A program made the translations under genes and the position numbers. This document shows, in pieces, positions 30,043 through 42,545 of a stretch of DNA of 64,000 nucleotides. The notes beneath the pieces were generated by a model. It had not been told where the DNA came from, did no database searches, and saw only the letters and a program-made list of their open reading frames with translations. The number at the start of each line of letters is the position of its first letter. Positions within the stretch are counted from its first letter, which is position 1. This DNA is from an uncultured Granulosicoccaceae bacterium (GTDB lineage: Bacteria; Pseudomonadota; Gammaproteobacteria; Granulosicoccales; Granulosicoccaceae). Where the stretch lies: positions 1 through 64,000 of the forward strand of contig CALAJN010000006.1 of NCBI GenBank assembly GCA_937922675.1, given 5' to 3'.

Positions 30043-31302
30043 ATGAAATTCAATCAAACCTTGGTCGCTTCGGCGATAGCGCTATCAGCGGGAGGTGCCT
30101 TTGCCCTTGCCAGCAGCAACGCGATCGCCGATTGCGCCATATCCGTGGACACCGCCGAGATCAGTGTTCTGGGCAACGAGTTTCCTGCCATACAGGCGAT
30201 CGTCGGGGCCGCAGAAGGCTGTTCAACCGATGGTGTGACCTTTGCCAGCAACCTGACCAAGGAGCATCGGGAGATCCAGGTTGCCGCGCTGACGGCAGAC
30301 CCGTCTGAGTACACTGTCGCTGTTGTTGCCAACAGCACCTTGGTGACATTGATGAACGACGGTCTGGTGCGCCCACTGAATGCACTTATTGATGAGCATG
30401 CACCGGACCTGCCTGACAATCTCAAGATCACCGTCGGTGATGACGTCATGGCTATCGCCTTCATGGCCAATGCTCAACACCTGATGTACCGCCAGGACAT
30501 CCTCGAGCAGGCAGGCGTTGAGGTGCCAACCTCCTATGAAGAGGTGCTGGCGGCTGCTGCAGCCATCAAGGAGGCTGGCCTGATCGAGTATCCCTTGACC
30601 GGTACCTACAAGAGTGGTTGGAACCTGGCTGAAGAGTTTGTAAACATGCTCATGGGCTTTGGTGGTGACATGTTCATGGACGGTAGTGCCGAGCCAAACC
30701 TCGACTCTGATGAAGCCAAGGCAGCGCTTGCGATGATGAAGTCGCTCACCGAATTCATGAACCCGGACTTCCTGACCTTTGATTCCACCATCGCGGCAGC
30801 CGAGTTTGAGCAAGGTAAAGCGGCAATGATGAACATGTGGGGTTCGCGTGCGGGTAGCGTCCTTGACGACGAAGGTGCGGCTGAAGGTGTGGTCGAGAAT
30901 ATCGGCTTTGCATCTGCACCGACCGTCGGCGGCGGTGATGTGCCTGCGTCCACGCTCTGGTGGGACGGGTTCACTATCGCGACCAACACCTCTGACGAAA
31001 ATGCAGTGGCAAGCTTTCAGGCCATGGTCAGCAGCGTCAGTGACGAGGTGGCCAACGCCAATGCAGATGCCGCTGTGTGGTTGATGGCGGGTTACGAGCC
31101 GACGCAGGCTGCTGAAGGTGTATTGGCAACCGCCAGCGCCGGAGCACAGCCCTATCCAATGCTGCCCTACATCGGTCTGATGCACACGGCTCTGGGTAAT
31201 GAGCTGGTGGAGTTCCTGCAGGGATCCGAGTCAGCAGAACAGGCGCTGGCGGACACAGAGGCTGCCTACCGTGCTGCCGCTGAAGAAGCGGGGTTCCTGT
31301 AA
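30043..31302 (+). CDS. ABC sugar-binding periplasmic protein
   Basis: This 419-residue protein has a signal peptide (cleaved near SSNAIADCA) and the two-lobe fold of family-1 sugar-binding proteins. Visible landmarks are the N-lobe EFPAIQAIVGAAEG, the hinge motif LMYRQDILEQAGVEVPTSYEEVL, and the C-lobe FEQGKAAMMNMWGSRAG. Nearby genes are permeases of the MalF/MalG type. Two Cys residues lie near the mature N-terminus and can form a disulphide. The ligand is unknown; an oligosaccharide or glycoside fits the neighbourhood. A ttggaga ribosome site precedes the ATG. Confidence 0.9.
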   Translation: MKFNQTLVASAIALSAGGAFALASSNAIADCAISVDTAEISVLGNEFPAIQAIVGAAEGCSTDGVTFASNLTKEHREIQVAALTADPSEYTVAVVANSTLVTLMNDGLVRPLNALIDEHAPDLPDNLKITVGDDVMAIAFMANAQHLMYRQDILEQAGVEVPTSYEEVLAAAAAIKEAGLIEYPLTGTYKSGWNLAEEFVNMLMGFGGDMFMDGSAEPNLDSDEAKAALAMMKSLTEFMNPDFLTFDSTIAAAEFEQGKAAMMNMWGSRAGSVLDDEGAAEGVVENIGFASAPTVGGGDVPASTLWWDGFTIATNTSDENAVASFQAMVSSVSDEVANANADAAVWLMAGYEPTQAAEGVLATASAGAQPYPMLPYIGLMHTALGNELVEFLQGSESAEQALADTEAAYRAAAEEAGFL

Positions 31303-31316
31303 CCGGTTGGGCCTCT

Positions 31317-31351
31317 GAGGCAGCGCGCGAGTTCGCGCTTCGCGCTGTCTC
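31317..31351 (+). terminator. Intercistronic hairpin between binding-protein and permease genes
   Basis: The arms gaggcagcgcg (31317-31327) and cgcgctgtctc (31341-31351) form an 11-bp stem with one G-U pair and a 13-base loop. No T-tract follows, so it is more likely a transcript-stabilising or partial-stop hairpin than a full terminator. It lies between the binding-protein stop and the first permease start. Confidence 0.6.
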
Positions 31352-31372
31352 GGTCTCCATTGGAAGCACCTC

Positions 31373-32395
31373 ATGCCGCACCGCACCTTCTGGTTGTTTA
31401 TCGCACCGTCCGGCATTGCGATGTTGTTGTTTATTGCGCTACCAATCGTATCGGTGATAGTGCAGTCGCTGCACATCGAAAACGAGAAGGTGCTCATCGT
31501 CAGCGAGAGCTGTGGTCCTTTCGGGTGCAAGGAGACCACCCGTGTTGATGAGGAGGCCTCGGCGGCGCTGAACGCCGAGCGACCACTCGGTCGCTTCAAT
31601 GGCATCGGCACCTACACCAATCGCAACCACCTGGCCTTCGAGGAGGTTTCCGCGGCCTGGAGTGGGCGCAGTAGTTTTGCTGATTTTGTCGATGGCGTGA
31701 TGAACCTGCCGTTCTACAAGGCGCTGGTATTCACGCTGACCTACACCTTTGTCTCCACGCCGTTTGTGCTTGCCCTCGGGTTTACTCTGGCACTGGCTGT
31801 CAACTCCTTGCACCGTTGGTTGAAGGGAGTCGTGATCTTTGCGACCTTGCTGCCGTTCATCATCACGCCATTGATTGGTTCTCTGGTGCTGTTCTGGATG
31901 ATTGATGCAGATGGCATCATCGGCAAGACGCTGCAGTTCATCTTTGATAACCCCGAGTTGTCACTGAAGGCATCGCCTGCGCTCACCTGGATTACCATCA
32001 TTACCTATGGCATCTGGCACTCAACGCCATTTGCCTTCATTGTGTTCTACGCCGGTCTTCAGACCGTGCCGGGCGAGACCCTGGAATCAGCGATGATCGA
32101 TGGAGCCTCGCGTTGGGAGCGCACACGCTACGTCGTGATTCCCTATCTCGCACCACTGGTCGTCTTTGTGTGCCTGATCCACCTGATGGATGCGTTTCGG
32201 GTGTTTGAGCCGATAGTGGGCTTCAATGCCTCGGCCAACGCCACATCCTTGTCATGGATCATCTACAACGATCTGTCGCAGGAGGTTCAGTTGTTTGGCT
32301 CTGCAGGCGCCACATCGGTGCTGACCATTATTGGGGTGATGATTCTGCTCGCCCCTGTGGTCTGGCTCACCTGGCGCGACTACCGAAGTGCATGA
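31373..32395 (+). CDS. ABC sugar permease, MalF-like
   Basis: This 340-residue protein has about six membrane helices and the cytoplasmic EAA-type loop ESAMIDGASRWERTRYVVIP that docks the ATPase. An extra periplasmic segment of about 75 residues between helices 1 and 2 carries CGPFGC, which could form a disulphide. It is cotranscribed with the next permease and follows the binding-protein gene by 70 bases, of which a hairpin takes half. Confidence 0.92.
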   Translation: MPHRTFWLFIAPSGIAMLLFIALPIVSVIVQSLHIENEKVLIVSESCGPFGCKETTRVDEEASAALNAERPLGRFNGIGTYTNRNHLAFEEVSAAWSGRSSFADFVDGVMNLPFYKALVFTLTYTFVSTPFVLALGFTLALAVNSLHRWLKGVVIFATLLPFIITPLIGSLVLFWMIDADGIIGKTLQFIFDNPELSLKASPALTWITIITYGIWHSTPFAFIVFYAGLQTVPGETLESAMIDGASRWERTRYVVIPYLAPLVVFVCLIHLMDAFRVFEPIVGFNASANATSLSWIIYNDLSQEVQLFGSAGATSVLTIIGVMILLAPVVWLTWRDYRSA

Positions 32396-32410
32396 CAAGG
32401 TTGGCTACGC

Positions 32411-33298
32411 ATGAGTCATGAGTCGGCAACACAGCATCGCTCCACGCCACTGCTGATCGCCACCAGCGCGTTTATCTTCATCTGGCTGATCGTTGCAGCC
32501 TTTCCCTTTTTCTGGACGATGTGGGGCTCGTTCAAGATTCAGGCGGATTTTTTCTCCAAGTCCGACTGGAGCAATGCGGTCACCGGCGTTAACACCACTG
32601 CGCGTTATGGCCATGCGTTTACTGGCGTAGCCTATGAAGGCGCCTGGGTGCAGCAGGACTTCTGGCGTGCCGCTGTCAATTCACTCATAGTCACCGTGTC
32701 GGTGGTTGTAATTTCGCTGACCTTCGGCACTCTCGGCGGCTATGCCTTGGCGCGCTCAACCGCCAGGTATGCCTTTGCCTTGTTGATCGTTGCGCTGATC
32801 TTTCGTGCCATGCCGCACATCACGCTGGTGTCCGGTTATCTGCTGCCGTTCTTCAAATTGAATATCTGGGGTTATCTACCCACCGCCATCATCGTGCTGG
32901 TGGCGATCAATCAGCCGTTTACCTTGTGGATGCTGCGTTCGTTTTTCATGAACGTGCCGCGCGAACTTGATGAGAGTGCGCTGGTGGACGGATGCACGCG
33001 AGGGCAGGCATTCTGTTACGTGATCATGCCCGTGATGTGGCCAGGTGTGATTACCACCGGGCTGTTCAGTTTTTTGCTCGCGTATAACGATTTTGCCGTG
33101 ACCGCCACCATCCTCAATCAGCACAACCAGACCATGGTGCCGAAGATCGCAAGTTTTCTGGGCACCACCCAGACCGAGGGCAACGTCATGTTTGCGGTTG
33201 CGTCGGTAGTCAGTGCGACCGCACCGCTGTTTGTGCTGGTGTTGGTGTTTCAGCGAAATATCGTCAGTGGGCTGACAGCAGGCGCAGTGAAAGGTTGA
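32411..33298 (+). CDS. ABC sugar permease, MalG-like
   Basis: This 295-residue protein has six membrane helices. The EAA loop is DESALVDGCTRGQAFCYVIMP, and the ending GLTAGAVKG is normal for MalG relatives. Its start is 15 bases after the MalF-like stop. Together they make one import channel; no ATPase gene follows in this operon. The only sugar ATPase of the window (36627-37715) probably serves it too. Confidence 0.92.
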   Translation: MSHESATQHRSTPLLIATSAFIFIWLIVAAFPFFWTMWGSFKIQADFFSKSDWSNAVTGVNTTARYGHAFTGVAYEGAWVQQDFWRAAVNSLIVTVSVVVISLTFGTLGGYALARSTARYAFALLIVALIFRAMPHITLVSGYLLPFFKLNIWGYLPTAIIVLVAINQPFTLWMLRSFFMNVPRELDESALVDGCTRGQAFCYVIMPVMWPGVITTGLFSFLLAYNDFAVTATILNQHNQTMVPKIASFLGTTQTEGNVMFAVASVVSATAPLFVLVLVFQRNIVSGLTAGAVKG

Positions 33299-33508: not shown

Positions 33509-34747
33509 ATGAATCTAAAAACAACCTTTTCAGTCGCCGCTGTTGTGGCGGCTTCGTGTGCCGCTGGCGGCGCTCAGGCAACTGAGCTTGAAGTGACACA
33601 CTGGTGGACGTCAGGTGGTGAGGCTGCGGCAGCAGCTGAGCTCGCCAAGGCTTTCAACGCCACAGGTAACACCTGGGTCGACGGCGCTATTGCAGGCTCC
33701 GGCGGTGTCGCTCGTCCGATTATTGTCAGCCGCATCATCGGTGGCGACCCCATGGGCGCTACTCAGTTGAATCACGGGCGTCAGGCCGAAGAGCTTATCG
33801 AGGCAGGCCTGTTGCAGGATCTGACAGAAGTAGCAGAAGCCGAAGGTTGGGCAGATTTTGTCAATCCGACTAGCCTGCTTGATTCTTGTACGCTGGACGG
33901 CAAGATCTACTGCGTGCCGGTCAATATTCACTCCTGGGAGTGGATGTGGCTCAGTCACCAGGCTTTTGAAGATGCAGGCGTTGATGTGCCCGCAGACTGG
34001 AATGAATTTGTTGCGGCCGCACCCGCCTTGCAAGAAGCTGGCAAAGTGCCGCTCGCCATGGGTGGGCAGGGTTGGCAGCAAAACGGCGCTTTTGGCGTCT
34101 TGACTTACGCCATCGGTGGCGTCGACTTGTGGAGCCAGATCAACGCTGACAAGGATGCAGAGGCAGCTGCGGGGCCCGAGATGGGCAAAATATTCGAAGC
34201 CGCTGCAGCAGCGCGCGAACTTGCCAAGGATTCAAATGTACAAGACTGGAACCAGGCCACCAATCTGGTAATCACCGGGCAAGCCGGTGCGCAGATTATG
34301 GGTGACTGGGCGCAAGGTGAATTTCAGGTAGCAGGTCAGGTAGCGGGAGAGGACTACACCTGCTTGCCGGGCTTGGGTCTCAATGAGATCATTTCAACCG
34401 GAGGCGATGCCTTCTACTTCCCCAAGCTGGATGATCCGGCGAAGACTGAGGCACAGCTCAAACTTGCATCAACGATGATCTCGAAGCAGGTTCAGGTCGC
34501 TTTCAACTTGAAAAAGGGTTCGCTTCCTGTTCGTGGTGATATCGATCTTTCCGCTGCCAATGACTGCATGAAAAAGGGTCTGGAGATCCTTGCCGCTGGC
34601 GGCATCGTGCCGACAGGCGACAACGTACTGACCGCTGACACTACCGGCCAAATGGAAGATCTGCAGACCGAGTTCTGGTCGGATCTTTCGATGACTGCGG
34701 AAGAAGCGCAAGCTCGCTACGCGGACATTATCTCGGACGCTGACTGA
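33509..34747 (+). CDS. ABC sugar-binding periplasmic protein, GtsA/glucose-mannose type
   Basis: This 412-residue protein has a signal peptide (cleaved near GGAQATELEV). The mature beginning LEVTHWWTSGGEAAA is typical of the glucose/mannose-binding GtsA group. The middle VPVNIHSWEWMWLSHQAFEDAG and DGAIAGSGGVARPIIVSRI fit the same family. The permeases behind it are of the matching kind. A cttggagatcg ribosome site precedes the ATG. Ligand specificity is not determinable here; glucose or mannose is only the best family guess. Confidence 0.9.
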   Translation: MNLKTTFSVAAVVAASCAAGGAQATELEVTHWWTSGGEAAAAAELAKAFNATGNTWVDGAIAGSGGVARPIIVSRIIGGDPMGATQLNHGRQAEELIEAGLLQDLTEVAEAEGWADFVNPTSLLDSCTLDGKIYCVPVNIHSWEWMWLSHQAFEDAGVDVPADWNEFVAAAPALQEAGKVPLAMGGQGWQQNGAFGVLTYAIGGVDLWSQINADKDAEAAAGPEMGKIFEAAAAARELAKDSNVQDWNQATNLVITGQAGAQIMGDWAQGEFQVAGQVAGEDYTCLPGLGLNEIISTGGDAFYFPKLDDPAKTEAQLKLASTMISKQVQVAFNLKKGSLPVRGDIDLSAANDCMKKGLEILAAGGIVPTGDNVLTADTTGQMEDLQTEFWSDLSMTAEEAQARYADIISDAD

Positions 34748-34758
34748 CTTTCCGTGCA

Positions 34759-34789
34759 GACCTGCCACTTGCTGGCTGAGTGGCAGGTC
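34759..34789 (+). terminator. Intercistronic hairpin between binding-protein and permease genes
   Basis: A perfect 11-bp stem (gacctgccact / agtggcaggtc, 34759-34769 with 34779-34789) has a 9-base loop. It starts 12 bases after the binding-protein stop and ends 11 bases before the chosen permease start. No T-tract is present, as for the similar hairpin of the first sugar operon. Confidence 0.7.
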
Positions 34790-34800
34790 CTGGCGGACTT

Positions 34801-35718
34801 ATGAATCATCAAATTACTCATAAAGGCGCTCAGGGCCGACGGCCCTTTCGCCCGCTACGCAATCTGAATGCGAAGATCGCTGCTATCCCGATGATCCTGA
34901 CCGCCATGGTCGTGTTCGTCGGTGGCACGATCTGGACGGTGGTGTACTCCTTTACCAACTCTCGTTTGCTTCCGAGAGAACAATTTGTTGGCCTAAAGCA
35001 GTACGAGCGCTTGTGGGGCACCAGCCGCTGGCAGGTGTCCATCGAGAATTTGCTTATATTCGGTGTGTGTTCCCTTGTGCTGTCTCTTGTGATCGGCTTT
35101 GTTCTTGCGGCACTCCTTGATCAGAAGATTCGCTTTGAAGATACTTTCCGCACCATATTTCTCTATCCGTTTGCCATGTCCTTCATTGTCACGGGCTTGG
35201 TCTGGCAATGGATTCTCAACCCACGGCTCGGGGTGCAGAATGTAGTGCGCGATCTTGGATGGGATAGCTTTGTCTTCGATCCACTGAACAACGCTGACAT
35301 TGCGATCTACGGCATCCTGATCGCTGCCATCTGGCAAGGCACAGGCTTCATCATGTGTCTGATGCTCGCAGGTCTGCGCGGCATCGACGAGGACATCTGG
35401 AAGGCCGCGCGTGTCGACGGTATTCCTGCATGGAAAACCTACATCTTCATTGTGATCCCCATGATGCGCCCGGTGTTTATCACAACGCTGGTCATTATTG
35501 CGGCAGGTATCGTCAAGGTGTATGACCTGGTCGTCGCGCAAACCAGCGGTGGCCCCGGTATAGCTTCCGAGGTGCCCGCCAAGTACGTTTACGAAAAAAT
35601 GTTTCAGTCGCAGAATCTGGCACAGGGGTTTGCCGCATCGACCATGATGTTACTGGCGGTTCTTATTGTGCTCATTCCATGGGCCTATCTTGAGTTTGGA
35701 GGCAGGCGTCGTGACTGA
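34801..35718 (+). CDS. ABC sugar permease, GtsB-like
   Basis: This 305-residue protein has six membrane helices, the first after a basic cytoplasmic tail. The EAA loop is DEDIWKAARVDGIPAWKTYIFIVIP. The start ATG 34801 lies right behind the hairpin; an in-frame GTG at 34780 would lie inside the hairpin and is less likely. The stop overlaps the start of the next permease gene. Confidence 0.9.
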   Translation: MNHQITHKGAQGRRPFRPLRNLNAKIAAIPMILTAMVVFVGGTIWTVVYSFTNSRLLPREQFVGLKQYERLWGTSRWQVSIENLLIFGVCSLVLSLVIGFVLAALLDQKIRFEDTFRTIFLYPFAMSFIVTGLVWQWILNPRLGVQNVVRDLGWDSFVFDPLNNADIAIYGILIAAIWQGTGFIMCLMLAGLRGIDEDIWKAARVDGIPAWKTYIFIVIPMMRPVFITTLVIIAAGIVKVYDLVVAQTSGGPGIASEVPAKYVYEKMFQSQNLAQGFAASTMMLLAVLIVLIPWAYLEFGGRRRD

Positions 35719-36616
35719 ATCAGTCGCCCCAGTAGGGCGTGGGCCGAATGGCCCAAAGCCGCGTCGCGTGTTTTCGCGTCGTAATATCTTTCTCTATGGC
35801 ATCCTCGGACTGGTTGCCTGCTACTACGCCTTGCCCTTGTACGTGATGGTTGTGACCTCATTGAAGGGCATGCCTGAAATACGCATGGGCAACATTTTTT
35901 CACCTCCGGTTGAGGTGACTTTTCAGCCTTGGGTCAAGGCCTGGGCCGAGGCTTGCACCGGGCTCAATTGTGATGGACTGAGTCGCGGTTTCTGGAATTC
36001 GGTGATGATCACGGTGCCGTCTGTTGTGTTATCCATTGCCATTGCATCGGTCAATGGTTATGCATTGGCTAACTGGCGTTTCAAGGGCGCGAATGTGTTC
36101 TTCACCATTCTGATCTTTGGTGCGTTCATCCCCTATCAGGTGATGATCTATCCTCTGGTCATCATCCTGCGTGAGATGGGCTTGTACGGCTCGTTCTGGG
36201 GACTGGTGCTAGTGCACAGCGTGTTTGGCATGCCTATTCTCACGCTTTTGTTTCGTAACTATTTTTCCAGCTTGCCCGAGGAGCTGTTCAAGGCCGCGCG
36301 TGTAGATGGTGCAGGCTTCTGGGGGATCTTTCTGAAGATCATGTTGCCAATGAGTGTGCCTATTTTCGTGGTGGCGATGATTCTGCAGATCACCGGCATC
36401 TGGAATGATTTCCTTTTTGGTGTGATCTACACCAAGCCTGCCAATTACCCGATGACAGTTCAGCTCAATAACATCGTGAATTCAGTTCAAGGCGTGAAGG
36501 AGTACAACGTCAATATGGCGGCTACGATGATTACGGCCTTGGTGCCGTTGACTGTCTATTTTATATCCGGGCGTTTGTTCGTCCGTGGAATCGCCGCTGG
36601 CGCGGTCAAGGGTTAG
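35711..36616 (+). CDS. ABC sugar permease, GtsC-like
   Basis: This 301-residue protein begins with GTG at 35711, preceded by ggagg 8 bases upstream. The GTG overlaps the GtsB-like stop. The EAA loop is PEELFKAARVDGAGFWGIF, and the tail VRGIAAGAVKG is shared with MalG relatives. Six membrane helices are seen. The second permease is completed by the ATPase gene 10 bases downstream. Confidence 0.9.
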   Translation: MTESVAPVGRGPNGPKPRRVFSRRNIFLYGILGLVACYYALPLYVMVVTSLKGMPEIRMGNIFSPPVEVTFQPWVKAWAEACTGLNCDGLSRGFWNSVMITVPSVVLSIAIASVNGYALANWRFKGANVFFTILIFGAFIPYQVMIYPLVIILREMGLYGSFWGLVLVHSVFGMPILTLLFRNYFSSLPEELFKAARVDGAGFWGIFLKIMLPMSVPIFVVAMILQITGIWNDFLFGVIYTKPANYPMTVQLNNIVNSVQGVKEYNVNMAATMITALVPLTVYFISGRLFVRGIAAGAVKG

Positions 36617-36626
36617 TTGGTAGCGT

Positions 36627-37715
36627 ATGAACCAGACCACATCTTCGGTATCCATTCGCGGCCTGGACCTGCACTTTGGAAGTGTCAAGGTACTCACAGA
36701 CCTTGATATAGAGATCGGTGAAGGCGAGTTTCTCGTTTTGTTGGGTTCATCCGGCTGCGGCAAGTCGACCTTGCTTAACTGCATCGCGGGCCTGTTGGAC
36801 GTCTCGGGGGGTGAGATCCACATCAAGGGGCGAAACGTCACTTGGGATGAGCCCAAGGATCGTGGTATCGGCATGGTGTTCCAATCCTATGCGTTGTACC
36901 CACAGATGACCGTGCGTGGCAATTTGTCCTTTGGCTTGAAGCAGGCCAAGGTTGCCAAGTCCGAGATAGAGTCTCGCGTGAAGCGGGCTGCTGAGGTGCT
37001 GCAGATCGAGGCCTTGTTGGAGCGCAAGCCTGCACAGCTCTCTGGTGGGCAGCGACAACGCGTGGCTATTGGTCGTGCACTGGTGCGTGATGTGGATGTG
37101 TTCTTGTTCGATGAGCCCTTGTCCAATCTTGATGCAAAGTTGCGTGCCAGTCTACGCGTAGAAATCAAGCGGCTGCATCAGCAATTGCACAACACCATGA
37201 TCTATGTGACACACGATCAGATTGAGGCGATGACGCTCGCTGACCGGATTGCCATCATGAAGGACGGCGCAGTTCAACAACTCGGCACTCCGCACGAGAT
37301 CTATAGCTCTCCAGTCAATCGCTATGTGGCCGCGTTTATCGGTTCTCCGAGCATGAATTTCTTCTCAGGCTCGCTGAGCGGAGATAATTTTGTTTCCGAT
37401 ACCATGACCCTGTCGATGGACCGTTATGCCTTTGATGGCACCGGTCGGCAAAACGGCAGGGTAGAACTCGGTGTTCGCCCCGAGCATGTTGCCTGTGATG
37501 AGGCCGCTCGTGACATGCCGTTTCAGGTCGAGGTGGATGTGGATGTGGTTGAGCCTATGGGCTCGGACACTCAAGTCTGGGGATCACTCCAGGGTGAGGA
37601 GTTTCGGTTTCGGGTCGACGGACAGAGCACCCTCAAGACTGGGGACAAGGTGCTTGTCGGCATCGACCCTGCGAGAACCTGCCTGTTTGATATGACTACT
37701 GAGTTGCGGCTGTAA
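36627..37715 (+). CDS. ABC sugar-import ATPase, MalK/UgpC-like
   Basis: This 362-residue protein has Walker A GSSGCGKST, signature LSGGQRQRVAIGRALVRD and Walker B VFLFDEPLSNLDAKLR. A C-terminal TOBE/OB regulatory domain from about 235 contains GVRPEHV. It is cotranscribed with the second permease set. Because the first set lacks its own ATPase, this protein could energise both, as MsmK and MalK-type ATPases are known to do in other bacteria; this is inferred from gene content. Confidence 0.92.
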   Translation: MNQTTSSVSIRGLDLHFGSVKVLTDLDIEIGEGEFLVLLGSSGCGKSTLLNCIAGLLDVSGGEIHIKGRNVTWDEPKDRGIGMVFQSYALYPQMTVRGNLSFGLKQAKVAKSEIESRVKRAAEVLQIEALLERKPAQLSGGQRQRVAIGRALVRDVDVFLFDEPLSNLDAKLRASLRVEIKRLHQQLHNTMIYVTHDQIEAMTLADRIAIMKDGAVQQLGTPHEIYSSPVNRYVAAFIGSPSMNFFSGSLSGDNFVSDTMTLSMDRYAFDGTGRQNGRVELGVRPEHVACDEAARDMPFQVEVDVDVVEPMGSDTQVWGSLQGEEFRFRVDGQSTLKTGDKVLVGIDPARTCLFDMTTELRL

Positions 37716-37763
37716 CTTCGCGCAGCACGGTCATGGCTCGATGACAAGAGGGCCAGGCCTGGA

Positions 37764-38141
37764 TCAAGCCGAAAGTGGAAGCCAGCGGCAGTAGCGCGAC
37801 GCTTCGTCTGTCACTGCGATGAGCATTGCGCCGCTCTCGGTGATGACAGAATCGATGACCGAATGCGCATTCGGGTTATTCGACCCCAATTGTCTCAACT
37901 GATCCATGATGGAGTGGGCACAGCAGTAATATTCGTCACCGTCTTGTTCGGTGTGCCAGTCTTTTGAGCCACTCAGGGAACGGTAGCGGCAGCTTGTACC
38001 GTCGAACTCGATTTCATCAACGAGTATCTTGTCGGCACCACCGTCGCGCATCAGGACGCCCTCTACACGTGTGGCTCGTGATGGGCTGCGGCCAAGCAGG
38101 CGAGGCTTGAGACTGTTCGGGTTCTTGATACGGATGGACAT
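37764..38141 (-). CDS. Conserved-looking hypothetical protein
   Basis: This 125-residue protein is of unknown function. It has no signal peptide or membrane segment. Cys residues occur as YYCCAH and RYCRW, and the middle is acidic (DKILVDEIEFDG). It lies on the minus strand at the end of the sugar operon. The reading frame has the residue mix of a real protein, but no family is recognised. Confidence 0.55.
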   Translation of the reverse strand: MSIRIKNPNSLKPRLLGRSPSRATRVEGVLMRDGGADKILVDEIEFDGTSCRYRSLSGSKDWHTEQDGDEYYCCAHSIMDQLRQLGSNNPNAHSVIDSVITESGAMLIAVTDEASRYCRWLPLSA

Positions 38142-38317
38142 GATCGCTGGCTGCGTTGAAAGTCTGGTCTATTCAACGATAGAAGTGGGTCTGAGTCCTG
38201 CACCAAAGGTGGTGCAATTCTGACGAATAGTGACATTCTTGGGCGATGCGTCGGGACGTTATCCAGTGCCTTGTCGTTGCAAGGTAGCCATGGTGTCCGA
38301 GCGGTTTCGGTGCGGAG

Positions 38318-38536
38318 TCAGCTTGCCGCGCGCACATGTTCGATCAACTCGCGCCCAAAGCCGTTGTCACCTCGCAAGTTTTCGCGACGCTTGTAGGCGC
38401 GCAGCGCAACCATGGTGCGCGCGCCGGGTATGCCATCGATCGGTCCATCATAGAGTCCGGCGTGTTGTAGTGCTTCCTGTACCAGTAACACGTCCGCTGT
38501 TGAGGCGATCGGTGAGCCTCGATGATTGCGCGTCAT
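38318..38536 (-). CDS. Small peptidoglycan-binding-like (PGB_1) protein
   Basis: This 72-residue protein is almost entirely one PG_binding_1-like repeat: VQEALQHAGLYDGPIDGIPG, then ARTMVALRAYKRRE. No signal peptide is seen, so export is unproven. Such a repeat usually occurs as part of a longer hydrolase or transpeptidase. It stands alone here on the minus strand, divergent from guanine deaminase, and the surroundings do not contain the rest of a larger enzyme. Confidence 0.7.
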   Translation of the reverse strand: MTRNHRGSPIASTADVLLVQEALQHAGLYDGPIDGIPGARTMVALRAYKRRENLRGDNGFGRELIEHVRAAS

Positions 38537-38762
38537 ATCAGGTCTCAGGGTGTCAGTCTCAGGGTAGGAGTCAGGCAGCGCTCGAGAAGTACTCGGTGGA
38601 CGGTGTTCTGGAGGCCACGCTGTGGCTCGGGCGGTGCACGATAGGCGAATCAGTCATGGAGGTACGCTGTTGTCGAGCCATCGGCATACGATACCGGACC
38701 TTGGAGTCTCGTCCTGGGCTATCGTGTGTGGACGATCACGAACGGCTCGGGGTGCAGTAAAG

Positions 38763-40139
38763 GTGTCTTCTGATAACAAGGCTGGCGTTGGACAGGTTTT
38801 TAGCGCGACCTGTTTGCACGCGCCGCGTCGCGACGTGCTGGAGGTCATGGATGACGTCGTGATTCATGTAGGCGAGGACGGGTTCATCCGTGAGGTGCTT
38901 GATCCCGGAGCGCCTGGTCGGGACGCATTGGTTGATGCGGCTCGCCAAGCTGGCAGCCTCAGTGTGATTCGATCGCCTCGATTCTTGATACCCGGCTTGG
39001 TTGATCTTCATATTCATGCACCACAATGGCCGCAGTTGGGCAAGGCCTTGCATCTCCCGTTAGAGGACTGGTTACAGCAAGCCACCTTTCCTCTGGAGAG
39101 CCGCTATTCGGACGTGGTCTTTGCCACCGCAACTTATCGCTCGCTGGTGTCAACCTTGCTCGCCAACGGCACCACTACGGCGGTCTACTTCGCCACACTG
39201 CATGATGAATCAACGCGTGTGCTGGCAGACATCTGTATAGAGCTGGGGCAACGGGCGCTGGTAGGTAGAGTCGCGATGGACCACCCCGGTGAGTGCCCCG
39301 ACTTCTACCGTGATGAATCCTCCGATGCTGCGGTGCGAGGTACTGATGATTTAATCGCCTACCTTGCGCGTGTCGGCAAAGGCCGGGTACTGCCGGCCAT
39401 AACACCGCGTTTCATTCCCAGTTGCACCGATGAGTTACTGGCAGGGTTGGGCGAACTTGCCGCACAACACGGTTGCCACATCCAGACGCATTGTTCTGAG
39501 AGCGACTGGGAGCATGATCATGTACTCGCGCGTATGGGTCGAAGTGACGCAGAGGCTCTGCATGAGTTTGGTCTCGTAGGGCGTCACTCCGTGTTGGCTC
39601 ACGCCAATCTGCTTGGAGATAGCGATATGGACCTGATCAAGCAACAAGGGGCAGGGGTTGCGCATTGTCCACTCTCCAATATCTATTTCTCAAGTGCGGT
39701 TTTCCCATTGCGACGTGCGCTCGAGAAGGGGTTGCACGTCGGTCTTGGCACCGATATTTCCGGTGGCCCCAGCGCCTCGATGTTCGAGACCTGCAAGCAT
39801 ACGGTGCACTCGGCACGCATGCTGGAACTCGGTGTGAATGCGCGCTTGTCGGCGGATGAGCGCGGTGTGCCGAACAGCCGTATCGATTTTATTGAAGCCT
39901 TTCACCTGGCAACCGCCGGAGGGGCTGTGGTACTCGATTTGCCAGTGGGGCGTTTTGAGCCAGGCTACCGTTTTGATGCTGTGCAGATCGACCCCGATGC
40001 GGTTGATGGGGGCATCCTGCGTTTCGATGGCCTGGATAGCACGGAAGATCTGCTGCAGAAGACCATCTATGGAGCGACACGGTCAAATATTGCGGCAGTC
40101 TGGGTAGACGGACAGGCAGTAGCCGAGCGTGCAGATTGA
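38763..40139 (+). CDS. guaD: Guanine deaminase
   Basis: This 458-residue amidohydrolase has the zinc-binding HIH (83-85) in IPGLVDLHIHAPQWPQ, then HCSESDWEHDH and the later GTDISGGPS strand. These fit guanine deaminase, which turns guanine into xanthine and ammonia. The start is a GTG at 38763, since no ATG exists nearby in frame. Purine breakdown genes do not flank it, and its place inside the sugar island is unexplained. A TIM-barrel isomerase gene follows after a 112-base gap. Confidence 0.88.
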   Translation: MSSDNKAGVGQVFSATCLHAPRRDVLEVMDDVVIHVGEDGFIREVLDPGAPGRDALVDAARQAGSLSVIRSPRFLIPGLVDLHIHAPQWPQLGKALHLPLEDWLQQATFPLESRYSDVVFATATYRSLVSTLLANGTTTAVYFATLHDESTRVLADICIELGQRALVGRVAMDHPGECPDFYRDESSDAAVRGTDDLIAYLARVGKGRVLPAITPRFIPSCTDELLAGLGELAAQHGCHIQTHCSESDWEHDHVLARMGRSDAEALHEFGLVGRHSVLAHANLLGDSDMDLIKQQGAGVAHCPLSNIYFSSAVFPLRRALEKGLHVGLGTDISGGPSASMFETCKHTVHSARMLELGVNARLSADERGVPNSRIDFIEAFHLATAGGAVVLDLPVGRFEPGYRFDAVQIDPDAVDGGILRFDGLDSTEDLLQKTIYGATRSNIAAVWVDGQAVAERAD

Positions 40140-40251
40140 TACAGGCGTCGGTTTGATAGAGTAACGTCGCCAAGGTCAGGAGGCTCTGGTATCCGCGTAT
40201 AGTTTTGCCGAGTTGCCAACGACCTGCCCACGTCACTCAAGCGATCAAGCG

Positions 40252-41010
40252 ATGCGAATTTCCTATCAGCTGTACAGCGCCAGAAATCACGGCCCGCTGG
40301 ATACGACTCTTGCCGAGCTGCGTGCCATCGGCTTTCGTCGGGTAGAGGGGTATGGAGGCTTGTTTGCCGATGTCGATGCGCTTGAACGAGCGCTTGACCA
40401 GCACGAGCTCAACATGCCGAGCGCTCATATGGGGCTCGATCTATTGGAATCGGAGCCCGACAAGGCCATCGCGATTGCTCGGCAATTGGGTATTGACAGT
40501 GTGTTCGCACCACACCTGGAAGAGAAAGACCGTCCGGTCGACGCGGCAGGCTGGCGAGCGCTGGCTGCACGCCTGGCCGCTGTTGGCAAACGCTTGTCCG
40601 ACGCGCACATCGTGTTTGGCTGGCACAACCATGATTTTGAGCTTATCGAGACAGCCGACGGGGCAGTACCGCTGACAGAGATCCTCGAACATGCGCCAGA
40701 CATTTACTGGCAGGCAGACCTCGCCTGGGTACAACGTGCCGGAGCAGACGCACAAGCCGTACTGGGCGCCCATCTGGGTCAACTCGCCTCGGTACACGTC
40801 AAGGACATCGCGCCCGCAGGTGAGTGTGTGGATGAGGACGGCTGGGCAGATCCGGGTGAAGGTGTCATGGACTGGAGCGTCTTGCTCGCATTGGCCAGTC
40901 AGAGTGAACGGGATGTCTTCTATGTGGCTGAGCATGACAATCCTTCAGATGCGGCGCGATTTGCACAACGTGCGTTTGCCTTTTTCGAGATGAAAGGGGC
41001 CGCTGTATGA
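40252..41010 (+). CDS. Sugar isomerase/epimerase, xylose-isomerase-like TIM barrel
   Basis: This 252-residue protein is of the AP-endonuclease-2 / xylose-isomerase-like group. It has the strand GWHNHDFELIE with its His and Glu metal ligands, then WQADLAWVQRAGAD and SVHVKDIAP. These enzymes isomerise or epimerise sugars or their keto forms using a divalent metal. Its stop overlaps the next start by 4 bases, so it is coupled with the Gfo/Idh/MocA dehydrogenase. This pairing is common in inositol and sugar-oxidation pathways. Confidence 0.88.
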   Translation: MRISYQLYSARNHGPLDTTLAELRAIGFRRVEGYGGLFADVDALERALDQHELNMPSAHMGLDLLESEPDKAIAIARQLGIDSVFAPHLEEKDRPVDAAGWRALAARLAAVGKRLSDAHIVFGWHNHDFELIETADGAVPLTEILEHAPDIYWQADLAWVQRAGADAQAVLGAHLGQLASVHVKDIAPAGECVDEDGWADPGEGVMDWSVLLALASQSERDVFYVAEHDNPSDAARFAQRAFAFFEMKGAAV

Positions 41011-42152
41011 CACGTCTTGGTGTGGGGATTGTGGGTTGCGGCAATATCTCGACTGCGTATTGTGAGCTGGCGCCGATGTACCGCTCAATAGAGATGCGGG
41101 CCTGTGCTGATCTTGATTCGGACATTGCTGCGGCGCGCGCCGCAGAATTCGGATTGACTGCCTGTACAGTTGATGAGGTCATGGCCCGGGATGACATCGA
41201 CATTGTGCTTAATTTGACGGTGCCAGCGGCTCATTCCGAGATCTCGCTTCGCGCTATCGCTGCAGGTAAGCACGTCTATTCAGAAAAGCCCTTCGTGTTG
41301 AGTGTAGATGAGGGGCTTGCCTTGAAGCTTCGCGCCAAGGAACGCGGGCTGCGTGTGGGCTCGGCCCCGGATACCTTTCTCGGTGGCAGCCATCAGCACG
41401 TACGGTCGCTGGTTGACACAGGCTCTATCGGCAAGGTGCTCAGTGCTACAGCACATGTAATGAGTCGTGGCATGGAGCACTGGCATCCCAATCCGGATTT
41501 TTTCTACCAGCCGGGCGGGGGGCCAGTACTTGATGTAGGCCCTTACTACATCACCAATCTGATACAACTGATAGGCCCGGTTGCACGCGTGCAAGCGGTT
41601 TGCACCACCCCGTTTTCAGAGCGCGAAGTGACCGCGGAAGAGCGGCGTGTTGATCGAGTGCCTGTTGGTACGCCAACGACTGTGCACGCCTTGCTTGAAT
41701 TTGTCAGTGGCGCTGTAGCCACCCTGGGTACCAGCTGGGATGTACACAGACATACGCAGCCTTTCATGGAATTACACGGTGAAACTGGCAGCGTTTCTCT
41801 CCCGGACCCCAACTTCTTCAGTGGCGATGTGTCGCTATGGCGCTCCGCGGAAGAGCCAGACTCACTTGAGGCGTTTTCGCACCCCTTTGGCGTCACCAAT
41901 TTTGAAGACAACAACGGCGTACCGCGTGCAAACTACCGTGCGGCAGGCCTTGCGGACATGGCAATGGCTATCCAGGAGAACCGTGCACACCGTTGCAATG
42001 ATGCACTGGCCTTGCATGCGGTAGATGTCATGACATCGATACTTGCAGCAGGTGAGTCCGGAGCACCGATTGAGCTCTCCACCACGTGTGATCGCCCGGA
42101 GGCCTTGTCCGCGAAGCAAGCGCAAGCCTTGCTGGTTGAGGCATCAGCGTAG
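41007..42152 (+). CDS. Gfo/Idh/MocA family NAD(P)-dependent sugar dehydrogenase
   Basis: This 381-residue protein has an N-terminal Rossmann fold (GVGIVGCGNISTAY), the EKP motif (VYSEKPF) that helps catalysis, and the family C-terminal domain. EKP is a hallmark of this group, which oxidises sugars or inositol. It overlaps the upstream isomerase gene (ATGA). The stop TAG is only a few bases before the first GH43 remnant, so they were probably once in one operon. Confidence 0.92.
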   Translation: MTRLGVGIVGCGNISTAYCELAPMYRSIEMRACADLDSDIAAARAAEFGLTACTVDEVMARDDIDIVLNLTVPAAHSEISLRAIAAGKHVYSEKPFVLSVDEGLALKLRAKERGLRVGSAPDTFLGGSHQHVRSLVDTGSIGKVLSATAHVMSRGMEHWHPNPDFFYQPGGGPVLDVGPYYITNLIQLIGPVARVQAVCTTPFSEREVTAEERRVDRVPVGTPTTVHALLEFVSGAVATLGTSWDVHRHTQPFMELHGETGSVSLPDPNFFSGDVSLWRSAEEPDSLEAFSHPFGVTNFEDNNGVPRANYRAAGLADMAMAIQENRAHRCNDALALHAVDVMTSILAAGESGAPIELSTTCDRPEALSAKQAQALLVEASA

Positions 42153-42154
42153 AT

Positions 42155-42545
42155 GTGATCACCAACCCGATTCTGCCCGGATTCCTGTGGTGTGTGGGCG
42201 CCGTGCCTCAGTCATGCTGACGGGCGTTTCTGGTTGATGTACACCGACGTGAAACGCTATGACGGCAACTTCAAGGACGCCCACAACTATCTGGTGAGCA
42301 CCACCGATATCGCGGGGCAGTGGTCGGAACCTGTATACCTTAACAGCAGCGGCTTTGATCCCTCCTTGTTCCACGAGAATGGTCGTCAGTGTTTGGTCAA
42401 TCTGCTCTGGAATCACCGAGCAGGCGCTCCCGGACATGAGGATTCCAGGAGCTGCTTTGGGGGCATCGTATTGCAGGAGTTCGACGAGGCCGCCGGTTGC
42501 TTGATCGGTGAGTCCCGATTCAGTTATGCGCCAGCCAAGGCTTAA
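42155..42545 (+). pseudogene. GH43 glycosidase remnant (deleted and frame-shifted)
   Basis: From GTG 42155 the frame reads VITNPILPGF, the conserved start of GH43 beta-xylosidases such as XynB. It then breaks. About 42189 onward a different frame reads GVWAPCLSHADGRFWLMYTDVK, which in the family lies some 60-70 residues later. The reading then follows the family (SGFDPSLFHENG, FGGIVLQEFDE) and stops at 42545 after about 118 residues. The catalytic half is missing. The join between frames looks like an internal deletion that also shifts the frame. The gene is dead; the frame from 42192 alone would be a 117-residue fragment. Confidence 0.85.

Follow-up and report, generated by a model that had tools for sequence, protein, structure and literature searches.

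Remnant of a GH43 beta-xylosidase gene at the end of a sugar-uptake operon in an uncultured Granulosicoccaceae bacterium

Introduction

Bacterial pseudogenes can arise by deletions between short repeats. The locus reported here joins such a case to two described enzymes. The first is 1YRZ of Bacillus halodurans, which the account in PMC12432433 places in subfamily 11 of GH43; the same source describes the GH43 catalytic triad as a base Asp, a modulator Asp and an acid Glu. The second is AtOGE of Agrobacterium tumefaciens (8BVK), described in PMC10628242 as a Mn2+ enzyme that carries out beta-elimination of 3-keto-O-glucosides, with H132, D163, H189 and E233 as Mn2+ ligands and H134 as the catalytic residue. 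Among the papers that our searches on the operon and on Granulosicoccus glycoside hydrolases listed, no title or abstract beginning described a GH43 gene paired with an AtOGE-like gene, and our literature search returned no paper on a Granulosicoccus xylosidase.

We analysed a window (the whole stretch of DNA studied) of 64,000 nucleotides, positions 1 to 64,000 of contig CALAJN010000006.1 of the uncultured Granulosicoccaceae assembly GCA_937922675.1. At positions 42155-42545 of this window lies what remains of a subfamily-11-type GH43 beta-xylosidase gene. We compared it above all with a genome of the same genus, an uncultured Granulosicoccaceae MAG (G003; our locus L028 is the same contig), hereafter called the sister. 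We put the probability that the window copy is a dead gene, a pseudogene whose orthologue stands intact at the matching place in the sister, at about 0.94.

Results

The core of the operon spans 33509-42152 and encodes a binding protein, two permeases, a UgpC-type ATPase, a TIM-barrel protein and an oxidoreductase. The genes of this region are as follows.

33509..34747, plus strand: sugar-binding protein of the core ABC transporter (PF01547; solved relatives)
34780..36616, plus strand: permease genes 34780-35718 and 35666-36616 of the core ABC transporter; position and inspection by eye gave the second its name
36627..37715, plus strand: UgpC/MalK-type ATPase of the core ABC transporter (NF008653, 439 bits, cut-off 432)
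38766..40139, plus strand: guanine deaminase gene between the transporter and TIM-barrel genes (TIGR02967, 414 bits, cut-off 375.4)
40252..41010, plus strand: intact xylose-isomerase-like TIM barrel, a homologue of AtOGE (8BVK) (phmmer E=2.7e-41; PF01261)
41007..42152, plus strand: intact Gfo/Idh/MocA oxidoreductase, 381 aa (solved matches; 74% to the sister protein)

The best solved matches of the binding protein are 5xpj and 5dvf, entries named 'binding protein component of ABC sugar transporter', which we take to be glucose-binding. Further solved matches are a glucose-binding protein (2b3b, 111 bits) and a xylo-oligosaccharide-binding protein (3zkk, 49 bits). The guanine deaminase gene and a small minus-strand gene are inserted within the core in the window and the sister alike, and tblastn found no match to the deaminase in the other relatives' operon loci compared.

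Several further features of the neighbourhood distinguish the two genomes. A GlgC-like gene (ADP-glucose pyrophosphorylase-like, by eye) lies between the guanine deaminase and TIM-barrel genes of the sister (L028 2347-3729), and the window has none there. Upstream of the core transporter, at 30043-33298, the window carries a second sugar-binding protein and two permease-like genes, with no ATPase gene of their own. A tblastn search for these three genes in the corresponding 17 kb of the sister (L134) gave no match, and they would have been either gained in the window lineage or lost in that of the sister. For the TIM-barrel gene at 40252-41010, Tajima tests with two of four outgroups indicated a higher rate in the window lineage than in that of the sister (chi-square 4.2 and 6.5; usual threshold 3.84).

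The remnant follows the oxidoreductase directly. An earlier sequence-only reading had proposed that a decayed GH43 gene ends an otherwise intact transporter, TIM-barrel and oxidoreductase cluster, and that two GH43 pieces adjoin here in different frames. Both proposals held: translation and a PF04616 match (E=8.1e-20) place the pieces where that reading had put them.

42155..42220, plus strand: original GH43 start (GTG, VITNPILPGF), leading into the wrong frame and to TGA after 21 codons (translation; sister)
42176..42184, plus strand: junction of deletion 1, CCCGGATTC (comparison with the sister edges)
42180..42512, plus strand: kept GH43 segment, sister residues 67-178 minus one codon, with the equivalent of Asp126 (PF04616; sister alignment)
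42513..42545, plus strand: C-terminal end SRFSYAPAKA (ten codons) and stop, with the junction of deletion 2 at about 42512/42513 (sister comparison)

From GTG 42155 the reading frame gives VITNPILPGF and then out-of-frame residues up to the TGA at 42218-42220, so that translation from the original start yields a product of 21 residues. A separate frame carries the segment DSCGVWAPC... and reads DSCGVWAPCLSHADG... from 42180. Within that frame an ORF of 117 aa opens at GTG 42192. PF04616 matches it over residues 2-108 with 71.8 bits (cut-off 32.2), at profile positions 68-166 of 288, which is far beyond chance. It is also the sole PF04616 match that a profile search found in the 3.63-Mb genome, and the sister GH43 protein, used as a query, likewise found a single match there.

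The sister has the gene whole. Its GH43 copy of 564 codons (L028 5791-7485) lies directly 3' of the oxidoreductase, with matching neighbours on both sides. The comparison with relatives that the sequence-only reading had called for thus gave an intact gene at the same place, and this gene starts at the NPILPGF end rather than at the equivalent of 42192. Its start residues equal those of the window but for one. The segment at 42180..42512 is 71-73% identical between the two. The sister protein ends in DVSRFSYAPANA followed by the stop; its last ten residues, SRFSYAPANA, correspond to SRFSYAPAKA in the window, and the stop codon is at the same position in both. Further 3', both genomes have a small minus-strand gene, a DNA-glycosylase-like gene and a DsbD-like gene, and only the window has additional genes (P450-like, SbcC/SbcD-like) between the latter two. 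The names DNA glycosylase, DsbD, P450, SbcC/SbcD and GlgC, like those of the second permease and of the Gfo-type gene in locus L160, were given by eye.

The closest solved relatives of the sister protein are GH43 beta-xylosidases, with 1yrz at the top (519 bits). We assign the gene to subfamily 11 by this best solved match. By eye, the sister protein has no leader before its GH43 domain, and the ancestral enzyme was probably intracellular. The last gene of the cluster once coded for a subfamily-11-like beta-xylosidase, a type of enzyme that frees xylose from short xylo-oligosaccharides.

Two deletions separate the window copy from that of the sister. Deletion 1 removes 173 bp near the start of the gene and shifts the frame. 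Deletion 2 removes 1,128 bp further on and is in frame. Between them the window copy lacks one codon. The nine bases at the first junction, CCCGGATTC, can be read in two ways, as the left edge (Pro-Gly-Phe, PGF) or as the right edge (Pro-Asp-Ser, PDS). Compared with the sister, 7 of 9 bases agree at the left edge and 8 of 9 at the right, and the mismatches fall at third codon positions. Because the junction fits both sister edges, a deletion between two short repeats is likely. At the second junction, any common bases are too few to resolve. After the two lineages parted, the window copy lost the 173 bp, probably, as the junction suggests, through slippage or recombination between two repeats of at most 9 bp, and its frame shifts after ten codons; it also lost the 1,128 bp further on.

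The deletions remove what the enzyme needs. In sister numbering the triad consists of D13 (base), D126 (modulator) and E192 (acid), and it is invariant in 87 of the 87 homologues examined, a set in which some genomes are counted twice; 97 loci were offered, and ORF extraction missed ten of them, mostly through reading one strand. D13 and E192 lie inside the two deletions, and the window keeps one residue of the three, the equivalent of D126. Since the catalytic base and acid are gone, no working xylosidase is possible. The sequence-only reading took the catalytic half to be absent, but the gene has not been simply truncated: there are two deletions, and the C-terminus and stop, which that reading missed, are kept at 42513-42545. 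What is left of the subfamily-11 propeller and C-terminal beta-sandwich is 111 codons of a propeller segment and the last ten codons.

The loss appears to be recent. Against the sister, the kept segment has a dN/dS of 0.10 (dN 0.17, dS 1.7), and other genes have 0.02-0.13 in the four of six for which it was computable; dS was not computable for the oxidoreductase and TIM-barrel genes. Tajima relative-rate tests on the remnant with four outgroups were not significant (chi-square at most 1.67). Neither analysis gave a significant sign of relaxed selection in the remnant, and for this reason divergence suggests that the loss is recent relative to the split from the sister. Conserved positions suggest weak signs of decay. 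Of 69 columns with at least 90% conservation, 7 are altered in the window, slightly beyond the 0-6 counted in the 87 homologues, two of which reach 5 and 6.

How often do relatives carry the gene? An oxidoreductase in one piece, at 48% identity or more, is present in 22 of the 36 family genomes searched, the window genome included. In the 21 others, GH43 lies directly after the oxidoreductase in 8 and elsewhere in 2; in the remaining 11 a genome-wide search found none of this kind. Several family genomes are incomplete (63-100%), so that single absences may be gaps; for G030, where the contig ends about 650 bp after the oxidoreductase, absence comes from the genome search alone. G001 falls outside the 21, its oxidoreductase being in two pieces. 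A wider set of 48 family genomes has an apparently intact GH43 in 18, adjoining the oxidoreductase in 15 of these.

The distribution is scattered over the oxidoreductase tree. Presence of GH43 requires 7 changes, 6 of them forced by well-supported branches; absence, taken as the label, requires 6, with 5 forced. This tree has 34 rows (the window and 33 others), six of 39 loci having lacked a long enough oxidoreductase, and 'present' means anywhere in the genome: in G026 and G032 the GH43 gene is not beside the oxidoreductase copy used. At one locus (G015) a GH2-type gene directly follows the oxidoreductase, and G010 and G013 carry GH43 in between; gene identities in G015 and G010 come from a Pfam search. 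Because presence and absence vary in this way over the family genomes and the tree, we conclude that GH43 is an optional member of the cluster that comes and goes while the core stays.

Among the 48 family genomes, the window genome and G065 have remnants. A permissive tblastn search of 12 loci, the 11 operon loci without GH43 and the G065 region, found a convincing GH43 remnant in G065 only: about 35 C-terminal residues (L149 8310-8414, G065:C106) in a different gene context, probably an independent decay. Since the search found no trace elsewhere, the other absences could be clean losses or states that precede a gain.

We collected 327 GH43 loci from GTDB genomes. Of the best 80 (L028-L107, the sister included, some on contigs that end near the gene), whose record titles name mostly rhizobia, 58 have both a TIM-barrel and an oxidoreductase gene close by, at 40% identity or more.

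Discussion

The disrupted gene itself is well explained by ordinary gene decay. Why its loss was tolerated is a separate question. The sequence-only reading held that the island lost its hydrolase while its uptake genes remain, which implied that it has no means to cut its sugars. This GH43 copy is indeed lost; however, the gene is optional in the operon, being absent in 11 of 21 genomes, and an AtOGE-like TIM barrel and a GH3 beta-xylosidase-like protein may be alternatives. The effect of the loss is thus probably smaller than that wording implied. We propose that the loss was probably tolerated, GH43 being optional and the genome having other candidate ways to split such sugars: the GH3 protein and, possibly, an oxidation-elimination pair that adjoins the remnant.

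The adjoining pair gives rise to one account, which we regard as possible but somewhat doubtful. In this account the oxidoreductase and the AtOGE-like enzyme would cleave the imported glycoside, and the hydrolase would be non-essential to the cluster. The cluster might split glycosides without a hydrolase because its TIM barrel is homologous to a 3-keto-O-glycoside beta-eliminase, and it has equivalents of all four Mn2+ ligands and of the catalytic H134. The core may handle glucosides or similar compounds by oxidation and elimination. Among solved structures, the oxidoreductase matches DgpA proteins best (72 and 65 bits). Moreover, at G000:C9 the window genome has another TIM barrel, which is 65% identical to one that comes after the oxidoreductase in the relative G006 and lies beside a gene that by eye is of the Gfo type, a pair like that of G006; and the cluster occurs without GH43 in the 11 genomes counted above. 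However, the DgpA lead is narrow (72 bits over residues 1-183, against 65 for other oxidoreductases), and the matches of the oxidoreductase to curated families all fall far below cut-off. The frequent company of GH43 and the pair, in those 58 of the best 80 of 327 loci, argues for a joint role rather than an alternative one.

A second tentative account looks beyond the operon. A GH3 beta-xylosidase gained by the lineage could have made GH43 redundant and allowed it to decay. The window genome has a single GH3 match (G000:C10:412035-414452), whose best solved match is 'Beta-xylosidase' 7zb3 (638 bits; the next best unrelated entry has 414). The genome also has GH10 matches at two places and a xylose isomerase gene, near which lie genes for a sugar kinase and a sugar-binding protein; no GH39 match was found in it. 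At E<=1e-100 this GH3 was detected in 4 of the 48 family genomes; all four lack an intact GH43, and the sister, where GH43 is intact, gave no GH3 match at that threshold. The mutual exclusion is not significant across the 48 genomes, however: zero overlap is expected by chance with P=0.14, and 26 of the 48 have neither gene. Gain of GH3 in the window lineage and its loss in the sister are both compatible with the data. Furthermore, several activities are known among the GH3 enzymes treated in PMC6887791.

A broader scheme would join these observations: a widespread sugar operon in which GH43 and the redox and beta-elimination pair act on the same glycosides, GH43 being lost repeatedly where the eliminase suffices, with the window catching a recent loss. 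We consider this scheme unlikely as a whole.

Two other explanations question whether a gene has died at all. The genome might hold an intact GH43 from which the assembler dropped two pieces, both lesions being deletions and one lying at a short repeat; this is very improbable, since there are two lesions (173 and 1,128 bp), the first of which has a repeat of no more than nine bases, the missing pieces have no match elsewhere in the genome, the kept part is also altered at highly conserved positions, and the contig, of 206,141 bases, belongs to a 20-contig assembly rated 100% complete. It is no more credible that the 117-aa ORF survives as a small protein that has taken on a different function, such as sugar binding: it is open, deletion 2 preserves its frame and its dN/dS resembles that of the flanking genes, but it is only part of a five-bladed propeller (fold as described in PMC12432433), its conserved positions are altered, no ribosome-binding-like sequence was seen by eye before 42192, and a low dN/dS is expected under a recent loss because most divergence then predates the loss.

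Death of the GH43 gene through two deletions remains our reading of the locus. As a pseudogene it is ordinary, and it is of some use as a well-flanked and seemingly recent loss. In the operon around it, found in rhizobia too, a GH43 xylosidase stands together with an AtOGE-like TIM barrel and a Gfo/Idh oxidoreductase; genomes in which GH43 is naturally present, absent or decayed are material with which to test which of the two routes does the work.

The locus can be set beside three known systems. With bacterial pseudogenes born by deletion it shares a frameshift, a short direct repeat at one junction and an intact orthologue in a relative, and nothing notable differs. With 1YRZ-type enzymes of GH43 subfamily 11 the likeness is divided between the two genomes. 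The sister gene aligns with B. halodurans 1YRZ over nearly its full length (519 bits, as above) and has the D/D/E triad, whereas the window segment matches the middle part of such enzymes; the base and the acid have gone, together with the whole C-terminal domain except its last ten residues.

The likeness to AtOGE is close in the enzyme and looser in the operon. Over 243 aligned residues, the window TIM barrel has identical equivalents of E39, H66, H132, H134, D163, H189 and E233, and Gln in place of E161 (read from the alignment). The AtOGE operon described in PMC10628242 comprises the flavoenzyme GlycDH, an additional oxidoreductase and two isomerase-like genes; the window operon has one oxidoreductase and one isomerase-like gene, and adds an ABC transporter.
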